Assembly (NCBI RefSeq): GCF_016765585.1
Contig: NZ_JAESWC010000001.1
Coordinates: 1 to 64,000, forward strand
Source of the DNA: Clostridium rhizosphaerae
GTDB taxonomy: Bacteria > Bacillota > Clostridia > Clostridiales > Clostridiaceae
Length of the DNA stretch: 64,000 bases
Reading direction: 5' to 3'
A program made the position numbers and the translations under genes. The notes below the pieces were generated by a model. It saw only the letters and a list, made by a program, of their open reading frames with translations, was not told the DNA's origin and ran no database searches. Position 1 is the first letter of the stretch. Each line of letters starts with the position of its first letter. Below are positions 19,691 through 57,139 of the stretch, one piece after another.

Positions 19691-19730
19691 TCTTCCTTTC
19701 ACTAGGAACACTGGGAATCTTAGAGTGCTT
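19691..19730 (-). repeat. Remnant of the two-hairpin repeat before the ArsR gene
   Basis: On the minus strand, CCCAGTGTTCCTAGTGAAAGGAAG matches in pieces the tail CCCAGTATTTCGAGTGAAAGGAG at 41389, preceded by GCACTCTAAGATT. Only the right part of hairpin B and the tail remain. Confidence 0.6.
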
Positions 19731-19757
19731 ACTTTAGGATTATTATAGCATATTTAT

Positions 19758-20573
19758 TTAAAATAAAGACATACTCCCTGTTTCCTTAGCATGAGCTTCG
19801 CCTGTTTTAAGAAAAAATATGGTTATTACCATCATTATGGCTCCTATGATAATGCTGACTAATATGAAGTTTTTTAAATCATAAATACTTTCATTATTAA
19901 GGAGGGCCCTCCTTAATAACTCAGCAGCATAGGTTAAAGGAAAAACATAACTTATACCCTTGGCCCAAAGTGGAAATACTGCTGTGGGAACTTTAATTCC
20001 TGCAAAGATTTCCATTGGCTCCTCTAATATAGTGAAAAGAAAACCTGTATCTCTAGAATATAAAAACAGTGAATTTAAAAGCATTCCCCACAGCAGGGAA
20101 AGTACTATTACAAGCATAATTCCAATCAAAGCTGAAGCAATATTAGCATTAAAAGCATTGCCTTTTATATATAAAATAACTCCAGAAAACACTACAAATA
20201 GCCATACGCTTTCAAACACAGAAGAAATGGCATTCCCTAAAACAAAAGCAAGCCTGTTTCCCGGAGTTAAATAGATAAGTTCAAGGGTACCAAAAATTCT
20301 CTCAGTGGAAAATCTCCAGGCTGACTGAACTAGAGATCTGAAAAAACTCATAGAAACATAACCAATTAGAACAAATAAAATAACATTTGAGCTATTTAGG
20401 TAAGTTATATGGTTTCTAATCTTATCCATATTAAAAGGCTTATATCCGTAATATGTTGACAGGAAAACAAGCATAGGCCAAAAGAACAAGGAAATATATA
20501 TGGATTTATTATGAAAATAATTCTTATGCTGCTTGACCATTTCAGCTCTTACAACCTTTAAAAAATATATCAT
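19758..20573 (-). CDS. ABC-2 type permease
   Basis: The 271-aa protein has six hydrophobic segments and the ABC-2 pattern: N-terminal FLKVVRAEMVKQHKNYFHNKSIYISLFFWPML, central RIFGTLELIYLTPGNRLAFVLGNAI, and a late FPLTYAAELLRRALLNNES. It forms half of an exporter with the ATPase directly upstream (2-nt gap) and the second permease at 21563. The exported substrate is unknown. Confidence 0.9.
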   Translation of the reverse strand: MIYFLKVVRAEMVKQHKNYFHNKSIYISLFFWPMLVFLSTYYGYKPFNMDKIRNHITYLNSSNVILFVLIGYVSMSFFRSLVQSAWRFSTERIFGTLELIYLTPGNRLAFVLGNAISSVFESVWLFVVFSGVILYIKGNAFNANIASALIGIMLVIVLSLLWGMLLNSLFLYSRDTGFLFTILEEPMEIFAGIKVPTAVFPLWAKGISYVFPLTYAAELLRRALLNNESIYDLKNFILVSIIIGAIMMVITIFFLKTGEAHAKETGSMSLF

Positions 20574-30317: not shown

Positions 30318-30484
30318 CATTTCCTCCATTTACTCGGAACACGGGATAGTTTAAACATGCTCGTTCCCTTTCGGTCACTGGGTAACTTAAAACATTCGCT
30401 TGCTCATAAGTTACCAGCTAAAGTCCTAAATAGACTTTAGCCTGGCAAACTACCCGTTAAAGCCAATTTAGGGCTTTAACCTCC
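30318..30484 (-). repeat. Nested two-hairpin repeat in the rsgA leader
   Basis: Read on the minus strand: GGAGG, hairpin A (TTAAAGCCC / GGCTTTAA), the left half of hairpin B (CGGGTAGTTTG), then a whole second unit (CTAAAGTC / GACTTTAG, then GGTAACTTA / TAAGTTACC), then the right half of the outer B (AAACTATCCC), and the tail TGTTCCGAGTAAATGGAGG directly before ATG. One unit appears inserted into the loop of another. The tail supplies the rsgA ribosome site. Confidence 0.8.
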
Positions 30485-36185: not shown

Positions 36186-36455
36186 TTCTCCTTTCACTCA
36201 AAAACACTGGGTAATCTAAAGCACTCGCTACCTTCGGGCACTGGGTAGCTTAAGATATTCGCTTCGCTTATAAGTTACCTGCTAAAGTCCATTTAGGACT
36301 TTGCTCCGCCACGGGGCAGTCTAATCTCACTCGCTCACGCTCGTAGACTGCCCGTAAAAGTCCATTTAGGACTTTGCTCCGCCACGGGGCAGTCTAATCT
36401 CACTCGCTCACGCTCGTAGACTGCCCGTAAAAGTCCATTTAGGACTTTTACCTCC
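36186..36455 (-). repeat. Array of two-hairpin repeats in the eamA leader
   Basis: Read on the minus strand: GGAGG, then three successive A hairpins (AAAGTCC / GGACTTT around TAAAT). The first two are each followed by a B hairpin with GGGCAGTCTA and TAGACTGCCC arms and the link TGGCGGAGC. The third is followed by GGTAACTTA / TAAGCTACC, then a right-half B (TAGATTACCCAG) and the tail TGAGTGAAAGGAG, 7 nt before the eamA ATG. The array lies between the predicted promoter and the gene, so it should be transcribed. Confidence 0.85.
36284..36448 (-). repeat. 73-bp tandem repeat, about 2.3 copies
   Basis: Positions 36284 to 36375 recur exactly 73 bp further on, and a third partial copy (AAAGTCCATTTAGGACTTT) ends at 36448. 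Each period is one complete A-B unit. The copies are identical, so the duplication is recent or maintained. Confidence 0.9.
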
Positions 36456-40997: not shown

Positions 40998-41212
40998 TAG
41001 TATATTGTTGTTTCTCTTATTATTCTGGTAGGTATAGCCACGAGAACCTAAAAGAAAAAGTTCGCTTCAGTAGCAGATTAAAGTTTAGTTATAACTTTTT
41101 AAATGAAAATGTGGTAGAAGCAAATTATAATTTATGCAATACCCCCTTGTAAGTTTATTTCCTTATCCTCATAATATTTATACTTTAGTAATACTCTTCT
41201 TTTTAAGTCACA

Positions 41213-41383
41213 AGGAGGTTGGAGCCCTAAATGGGCTTCAACGGGTAATCTGCGAATGGAAATGAGCGCTCTGGATTACCCAGTGTTTCGAGTGAAAGGA
41301 GGCTGAGGTCCTAAATGGACTTCAGCGGGTAATTTGCAGCAGAGCGAGTGCTCTAAATTACCCAGTATTTCGAGTGAAAGGAG
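41213..41383 (+). repeat. Two tandem two-hairpin repeats before a lipoprotein gene
   Basis: Unit 1: GGAGG, hairpin A (TTGGAGCCC / GGGCTTCAA around TAAAT), hairpin B (CGGGTAATCTG / GGATTACCC), tail GTTTCGAGTGAAAGGAGG. Unit 2: A (CTGAGGTCC / GGACTTCAG), B (CGGGTAATTTG / AAATTACCC), tail ATTTCGAGTGAAAGGAG, then 5 nt and the ATG. The tail of unit 1 is also the leading GGAGG of unit 2. This is the clearest copy of the family. Confidence 0.88.
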
Positions 41384-41388
41384 AAATT

Positions 41389-41934
41389 ATGAGGAAATCA
41401 TTTTATGTTATTGTAATATGCACATTTGCTTTTATGCTTTTATGTGGTTGCCAAAATCCTACAAAGGCTAAGAGAAAAATAATCATGGAGGATGTTAAGG
41501 TAGTCAGCGTTAACGAACCTATTAAATATGATAATATTCAGTATGGCTTCACTTTTACCTTACCAGAAAGCTGGAGTGGGTATAAAATACTAACTAATCG
41601 TTGGGAAGGTTTGTCGTTAGGACAGCAAAATGGTGAAAAAATAGTAGAAACAGGCCCTCTTATCATAATAAGACATCCTCAGTGGACGATGGAAAATCCA
41701 AGACTGGATATCCCAATTATGGTATTTACTCAAAAACAGTGGACTTCGCTGCAGAAGGATGAATTTCATATAGGCGCAGCACCGATAGGTCCAAGTAAAC
41801 TCGGAGAAAACAAGGATTATGTTTTTGCTCTCCCAGCTCGATATAATTTTTCATTTTTGCCTGGATATGAAGAGGTAGAAAATATATTGAAGGGTAATCC
41901 TCTTAAGGCAACTGAAAATACATCCTCATATTAA
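41389..41934 (+). CDS. Lipoprotein, 181 aa
   Basis: The ATG at 41389 is placed by GAGTGAAAGGAG, part of the hairpin repeat. A signal peptide with lipobox LLCGC (Cys at about 21) predicts surface anchoring. The mature part contains YGFTFTLPESWSGYKI, a strand pattern of small clostridial lipoproteins, and HIGAAPIGPSKLGENKDYVFALPARYN. Function is unknown. A fragment of a second copy of its C-terminal part lies at 43493. The gap 41935-42119 holds only a weak inverted repeat, GGATATTCC/GGAATATCC. Confidence 0.78.
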   Translation: MRKSFYVIVICTFAFMLLCGCQNPTKAKRKIIMEDVKVVSVNEPIKYDNIQYGFTFTLPESWSGYKILTNRWEGLSLGQQNGEKIVETGPLIIIRHPQWTMENPRLDIPIMVFTQKQWTSLQKDEFHIGAAPIGPSKLGENKDYVFALPARYNFSFLPGYEEVENILKGNPLKATENTSSY

Positions 41935-56892: not shown

Positions 56893-57139
56893 TAAAAAAA
56901 CACCTGTCTCCTTTATAAAGAGACGGGTGTATATCCGCGGTACCACTCAAATTAACTAAACTTAGTCCACTCAAAACTTTAACGCAGTCAACGGCTTTTC
57001 CTCGCAATTGCTCAGAAAGCTTCTCAAAGGCCCGTTTCACCATTTTTTTCTTGCAGGACTTCCACTCTGTTCCTGCTCGCTGGCAGAAAAATTAATAGTT
57101 ACTTTTTCCTTATCCTTGAATATTTGGCTAATTTATTTA
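56893..57139 (-). promoter_or_regulatory. T-box leader of argS
   Basis: On the minus strand GAGTGGTACCGCGG (56935-56948) matches the T-box core AGGGTGGTACCGCGG, whose TGGT pairs with the tRNA acceptor end. A terminator (ACACCCGTCTC / GAGACAGGTGT, then seven T) follows at 56893-56930. Upstream, GGAACAGAGTGGAAGTCC and CCTTTGAG resemble Stem I elements. I cannot assign the specifier codon with certainty. Confidence 0.85.

Follow-up and report, generated by a model that had tools for sequence, protein, structure and literature searches.

Directly upstream of a gene for a 181-residue protein, the window (the whole analysed stretch of 64,000 nucleotides from Clostridium rhizosphaerae) carries two copies of a structured repeat on the + strand. 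They stand head to tail, at 41214-41301 and 41298-41383, and have one GGAG in common. A unit of this repeat is about 85 nt long and comprises GGAG, a hairpin A of 10 bp with the loop TAAAT, a hairpin B of 9 bp with an inner stem, and a tail of which the end, AAAGGAG, is a Shine-Dalgarno (SD) sequence; examples of such tails are AGTGTTTCGAGTGAAAGGAG and AGTGCTTCCGACTAAAAGGAG. The copies in the window and the gene behind the tandem are:

41214-41301, + strand: first complete unit, from GGAG to GGAG (108.2 bits, model positions 1-88)
41218-41242, + strand: hairpin A of the first unit, loop TAAAT (helix 1 of the covariation alignment)
41243-41281, + strand: hairpin B of the first unit with its inner stem (helices 2 and 3 of the covariation alignment)
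41290-41301, + strand: tail of the first unit, GAGTGAAAGGAG (exact match), also the left end of the second unit
41298-41383, + strand: second unit, ending in the SD of the downstream gene (94.3 bits; GGAG-AAATT-ATG)
41389-41934, + strand: gene downstream of the tandem, 181 amino acids, no Pfam family at E 1e-5
36188-36455, − strand: array of a unit (36377-36455), a 73-nt repeat and a composite (36188-36307)
30324-30484, − strand: composite of an outer unit with a nested unit (66.5 bits)
19693-19774, − strand: probable decayed unit (tail only) before an ATG (16.5 bits, E 0.084)
110-195, + strand: hairpin A and B core within a copy of a second repeat family, no gene following (67.2 bits)

Both composites on the − strand lead into a gene: the one at 36188-36307 ends in GGAG-AAACTTA-ATG, followed by an EamA transporter gene, and the one at 30324-30484 in GGAG-GAAATGA-ATG, followed by a gene for an RsgA-type GTPase. 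The initial annotation had named at least four loci with this module. Those at 41213, 30318 and 36186 are real, while the remnant at 19691 has a tail and a position before an ATG that look right and is, at 16.5 bits, not significant alone (E = 0.084). The same orientation ascribed to all four holds relative to the downstream gene but not by window strand, as the locus at 41213 lies on the + strand and the other three on the − strand.

The stems of the unit are under strong constraint. An alignment of 42 chosen units from the C. rhizosphaerae genome (41 distinct; a selection rather than a census) has standard pairs in 95.5% of the stem cells and changes on both sides at 17 of 27 stem pairs. None of 500 shuffles reached the observed values of pairing and double change, and sliding the stem register by one to three columns lowered the pairing to 30-46%. 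In helix 1 (hairpin A), 97.1% of the cells are paired, with double changes at 6 of 10 pairs; helices 2 and 3 (hairpin B) are paired in 97.8% and 92.6% of the cells, with double changes at 11 of 13 pairs. The compensatory arm changes claimed from the window alone are thus confirmed on 42 units, and stems devoid of them, which would have spoken against the family, were not what we found. A possible third stem in the tail, TTTC-GAGT-GAAA, is paired in 89% of the cells but is unproven, as it has no double change among the 41 distinct sequences.

Nor is the family a product of chance. The 12-base tail GAGTGAAAGGAG occurs 45 times in the C. rhizosphaerae genome compared to 0 times for its reversal, and a covariance model finds at least 158 matches (150 of 1592 first-look candidates were scored), every one of those listed being full length; BLASTN with one unit as query gives 60 matches in this genome. 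One contig, C1, was read completely (658,422 of the 4,849,201 bases of the genome). Units scoring 35 bits or more number 44 there and form 36 arrays, of which 30 are single, five consist of two units and one of four. This count leaves out 7 of 51 matches that score below 35 bits, including the 19691 remnant, and comprises three overlapping tandem covariance-model matches added by hand. Extrapolation from this one contig suggests some 320 units per genome.

The arrays on C1 lie almost without exception at translation starts. An SD and a start codon stand at the end of 34 of the 36 arrays, 33 of them found by script (start codon 3-15 nt after the last GGAG, open reading frame of at least 60 codons) and one, array 208503 with the end GGGAGGAAAAAGTAATG, missed by the script and accepted by eye. 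The gap from GGAG to the start codon is 5-11 nt in the 29 C1 units that stand directly before a start. By comparison, a start is preceded by 4.9% of random intergenic C1 positions, by 214 of 499 (43%) intergenic C1 GGAG sites outside the arrays, and by 62 of 94 AGGAGG sites. The two remaining arrays, at 110 and 74364, are hairpin A and B cores inside the second repeat family. The proposed comparison of start-codon distances with random positions comes out in favor of placement at starts, and copies on C1 are not scattered at random with respect to genes and orientation. The tail, which the initial annotation read as the ribosome site, leads in the second unit of the tandem into GGAG-AAATT-ATG, and the same placement recurs in the C1 arrays. 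The left edge is less uniform than the right, with GGAG in 21 and NGAG in 28 of the 36 arrays. Array strands (13 + and 23 −) follow those of the genes (188 + and 406 −) with no bias beyond them, and a strand bias as a sign of lagging-strand transposition was rejected on this ground.

Other genomes repeat the pattern. Among 31 strong matches chosen from genomes G149, G061 and G001 and 32 chosen from named Clostridium genomes (neither set is a census, and the open reading frame limit was 40 codons), 27 and 26, respectively, stand directly before a start. In the former set, L224 and L225 reach a start through a later tail, while L153 and L161 do not. The exceptions in the latter are the unit at L129 3812, which is followed by another unit, L130 and L182, which continue into a subsequent tail that does have a start, L181, of which the tail is degraded, and L169 and L183, which lie within rRNA operons. 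At L153 (1522-1608, G001), an ATG follows the GGAG of the array, but the frame it opens is very short and may belong to a broken gene or encode a small protein. The L161 unit (1499-1579, G001; also at C5:4722644 and C5:4667130) has no SD tail; judging by scores, G001 has three copies like it. Rfam finds no rRNA gene at L161, and the unit may belong to another repeat.

Beyond its own genome, the family is present in part of the Clostridiaceae. A tail scan with one genome per species (which may not include the C. rhizosphaerae genome itself) yielded 12 stretches, under names including C. carboxidivorans P7, C. drakei, C. manihotivorum, C. muellerianum and C. magnum; chance probably accounts for two of the 12, L126, which scores 14.5 bits, and L128, which the model does not match. 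The P7 coordinates recur under G135 among the family genomes, so that C. rhizosphaerae probably shares its family with C. carboxidivorans. Matches occur in 10 of 38 relatives (E 0.001) and in 28 of 145 family genomes (E 1e-6, strict filters), both besides the own genome, with at least 30 each in G000, G001, G054, G061 and G149 in the family scan. In addition, nine loci from six genomes (L169, L183, L086, L088, L090, L091, L097, L098 and L099) give weaker matches within rRNA operons, all in the sense of the rRNA. They follow the 3' end of 16S, occupy the spacer between 16S and 23S or between 23S and 5S, or precede 5S. Such relatives in rRNA spacers could represent insertions or else an earlier form of the element.

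Comparison of sites across species delimits the unit. The leader S2, upstream of a gene that we take to be of the 2-oxoacid oxidoreductase type, is empty in C. carboxidivorans P7 and contains one unit in C. drakei and three in C. muellerianum, the last two of which are identical by eye. The empty site reads TATAAATAAAGGAGGAAGAGAAAAAATG. In C. drakei, TATAAATAAAGGAG is followed by an 85-nt unit ending in AAAAGGAG and then by GAAGAGAAAAAATG, placing the insertion exactly after GGAG. Taken by itself, this series in three species would be compatible with gain or loss and gives no direction. A nested unit is apparent in C. magnum L130, which has about 74 nt extra in the hairpin B loop after GTGAG compared to P7 L131; at this junction, a few loop bases are replaced and not purely added. 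The inner module of L130 is also found in C. magnum L181, where the outer unit around it resembles L179, a different locus, by eye. Copy number differs at G149 L223, with two units versus one, partly deleted, in P7 L168.

Several sites are common to two to four species, which allows for old insertions with sequence turnover. At one of them, S1, coding sequence that hardly differs among P7, C. drakei, C. muellerianum and G003 flanks units with different arms, whose stems, judged by eye, still pair. Such turnover would fit new insertions, conversion by other copies or fast evolution under structural constraint, and its speed at common sites leaves room for gene conversion. Site S8 is filled in P7 and without a unit in C. 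muellerianum and C. drakei, their leaders having diverged, and S5 retains a remnant of 16.6 bits in C. muellerianum. Upstream of a gene presumably of the grdA type, judging by its protein, units are present in P7 L121; the model finds none in the P7 paralogue L187 or in C. muellerianum L188. Two G001 sites have no unit and are too diverged for exact boundaries, and the paralogous leaders L186 and L191, without a unit, are unalignable and thereby uninformative on boundaries. The anatomy, the covariation, the placement at SDs and, at orthologous sites, one base-exact series, one nested difference and one difference in array length are direct observations; fresh transposition is not among them.

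We consider it likely that the units are copies of a mobile element, non-autonomous and about 85 nt long, which targets GGAG and has a GGAG at its right edge as well. The initial suggestion of a mobile repeat supplying a translation start site is supported by the S2 series, the nested insertion, the copy-number difference and the many dispersed copies. The element would insert on the sense strand directly 3' of a GGAG, in practice the SD of a gene. The old SD would then become the left boundary, the right GGAG would serve as SD at 5-11 nt from the start, and the gene would keep an ordinary SD. Head-to-tail arrays would follow because each copy ends in GGAG, itself a target, and nested copies because the GAG in the hairpin B loop would also be used. 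Movement may proceed as a single strand or a circle with the ends joined at GGAG, by an enzyme acting in trans for which hairpins A and B would be the recognition structures; a HUH-type enzyme is a tentative candidate for this role.

Whether the right GGAG travels with the element or arises at the target was assessed on the 30 of the 36 C1 arrays in which the model match ends in GGAG, the same arrays that served for the SD accessibility analysis below. We hold it probable that the AAAGGAG tail belongs to the element, as opposed to a 4-base target duplication. The left tetranucleotide equals the right one in 20 of the 30 arrays, the others having AGAG, CGAG and the like, and the base before the right GGAG is an A in 27 arrays versus 20 before the left. 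This pattern favors an element-borne tail, yet a 4-base duplication followed by decay of the unused left copy would look similar. The claim that the units carry their own SD is therefore likely in substance, while the GGAG on both sides also fits a duplication. An element without an SD, moved by an enzyme that duplicates its target GGAG so that the right GGAG is a target-site duplication, is nevertheless an unlikely origin. It accords with GGAG on both sides at S2, with the 20 arrays of equal ends and with the GAG on both sides of the nested unit in C. magnum L130, but the ends differ in 10 of 30 arrays (though decay of a left copy no longer in use could be the cause), conservation extends to the A-rich bases that precede the right GGAG, and a GGAG-specific enzyme would be needed.

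Quite unlikely, in our judgment, is that the copies spread without a dedicated enzyme, through template switching and recombination (homologous or by microhomology) from one GGAG motif to another. A homology of four bases is little to go on for the placement of hundreds of copies almost exclusively at SDs, and the 34 of 36 arrays before starts exceed the 43% expected for intergenic GGAG. This despite several observations in its favor: junctions at GGAG or GAG, replacement of the bases between two GAG motifs at the nested junction, the turnover of arm variants at common sites, and the fact that no enzyme was found. A further, highly speculative route leads through RNA, in which a processed two-hairpin leader RNA or its cDNA would later be copied back into DNA. 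It would explain the SD copies in gene sense together with the rRNA-linked loci in rRNA sense. The joining sites, again only a faint prospect, would be the transcript GGAG facing the 16S anti-SD or a point just downstream of the 16S 3' end, which would explain SDs and rRNA spacers as sites. If true, such movement would be a new way of genome targeting, homing to the translation start.

The effect on translation is presumably near neutral. Within the same 30 leaders, the mean predicted probability of the SD being unpaired is 0.448 with the unit and 0.482 with the unit removed. Ordinary SDs average 0.43 in a sample of 150 out of 268, and a value of 0.479 results when the unit body is shuffled. 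The unit thus leaves the predicted accessibility of the SD as it was and looks translation-neutral in silico, and masking of the SD as its main effect was rejected, there being no difference from shuffles, emptied leaders or ordinary SDs. Tail pyrimidines are predicted to pair with the SD at a mean probability of 0.36, which would leave room for mild modulation. The downstream genes are mostly unrelated, as the initial annotation had it. Among 90 distinct downstream proteins, a sample taken after removal of near-identical ones, ten pairs are homologous at E 1e-8, and in nine of these the two proteins come from different genomes. Pfam assigns ten downstream genes to two EamA transporters, a GTPase, an HTH-domain protein, an ABC ATPase, a PLP enzyme, two oxidoreductases and a glycosidase, with one lacking a family. 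A metabolic regulon was rejected on the variety of these proteins, which are samples and not a census.

A regulatory role in cis, as a leader RNA (riboswitch, protein-binding leader or thermometer) that spread by duplication and is kept for gene control, is very unlikely. The strong constraint on the stems, the sites common to several species and the pairing of the tail pyrimidines with the SD would all suit it. However, only ten homologous pairs among 90 proteins, nine of them between genomes, and ten genes in varied Pfam families point elsewhere, as does an SD accessibility equal to that of shuffles, emptied leaders and ordinary SDs. Copies also occur in rRNA spacers and inside another repeat. 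Moreover, the window copies (41150-41420) have no match in Rfam at E up to 10, by which a known Rfam RNA was rejected. The leader RNA switch considered at the outset is unsupported on the same evidence, and we regard a regulatory switch as unlikely because SD accessibility is unchanged and the downstream genes are mostly unrelated.

A candidate partner enzyme was sought among the Y1 transposases. The C. rhizosphaerae genome has one intact Y1 gene and one decayed. The intact gene (L081 1823-2791; G000:C6:81325-82245) encodes 322 amino acids and has, by eye, inverted ends of the GTTAACC type. No unit matches at E 0.01 were found in 12 Y1 loci searched, including L081 and L082 of the own genome. 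A Y1 match is present in eight of nine unit-bearing genomes. Y1 genes do not track the units, as C. drakei has units and no Y1 match while G033 has 31 transposase matches and no unit; a resident RAYT-like partner was rejected on these grounds. According to PMC6006769, the TIRYT subclass has terminal inverted repeats and no REPs, and the Y1 gene of the own genome may belong to it.

Known systems resemble the unit in part. REP and REPIN sequences with their RAYT (TnpA-REP) are, according to PMC6006769 and PMC3733652, short high-copy intergenic hairpin repeats with a foot tetranucleotide, non-autonomous and found in arrays, all of which applies to the unit. Its foot, however, is GGAG (21 of 36 arrays; NGAG in 28 of 36) and not the GT[AG]G given in PMC6006769, and it consists of two different hairpins in fixed order at the SD, with none beside the searched Y1 genes. 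Elements of the IS200/IS605 family have subterminal hairpins, as does the unit, and insert on the 3' side of a short target without evident duplication, as the unit probably does. S2 fits insertion 3' of a fixed target with a matching right end, although a 4-base duplication gives identical letters. GGAG joints, arrays with the same joint and hairpins adjacent to the ends would be the expected leavings of single-strand transposition or a circle intermediate. Unlike these elements, the unit has no transposase gene inside and is not tracked by Y1 genes. There is moderate support for the statement that it works like IS200/605 and no support for its being an IS200/605 derivative.

Small interspersed repeats (MITEs and Correia, ERIC, RUP, SPRITE and BOX elements) share with the unit that they are small, structured, dispersed and in leaders, and they affect transcripts, according to PMC3049150. 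The unit differs in its target, the SD, in restoring that SD, and in having no terminal inverted repeats, as its ends, GTTGAAG... and ...GAAAGGAG, are not inverted copies. ANTAR-type leader RNAs likewise have two adjacent hairpins in 5' leaders. The loop of the unit is TAAAT, it has no Rfam match and its downstream genes are varied; ANTAR leaders have hexaloops and were dropped since the loops differ. Also dropped were integron attC sites (core-box order wrong), IS607 (target GG) and group II introns (the unit is far too small). Mobile or repeat candidates in other genomes are reported in PMC8632094 and PMC6429828. No description of the unit family was found in the open-licence papers searched.

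There is good support for reading this repeat family of the Clostridiaceae, which is placed at the SD and restores it, as a mobile element positioned exactly at SDs. It would thereby be able to spread before unrelated genes and, it appears, to do so without silencing them. For mobile DNA in a leader, damage to gene expression is the usual risk, and landing at an SD while leaving an SD would be an unusually clean way of avoiding this. Such an element would turn ribosome-binding sites into a store of landing places and would account for the differing leader lengths of related Clostridium species, some of which are studied for gas fermentation. S2, where one and the same gene has zero, one or three units in its leader, allows a direct test of what the unit does to translation, and the enzyme, once found, could become a tool for placing DNA at start sites.

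Two further kinds of structured sequence were noted. The second, larger repeat family is found at 60-290 in the window, at C1:74314, at C12:1418421 and elsewhere. It has 27 rows of at least 98 nt in the C. rhizosphaerae genome, seven of them full length with the hairpin A and B core; this core is about 70 nt long within second-family copies, of which three filled and five empty ones were aligned. The window also contains a T-box leader at 56916-57125 on the − strand (115.5 bits).
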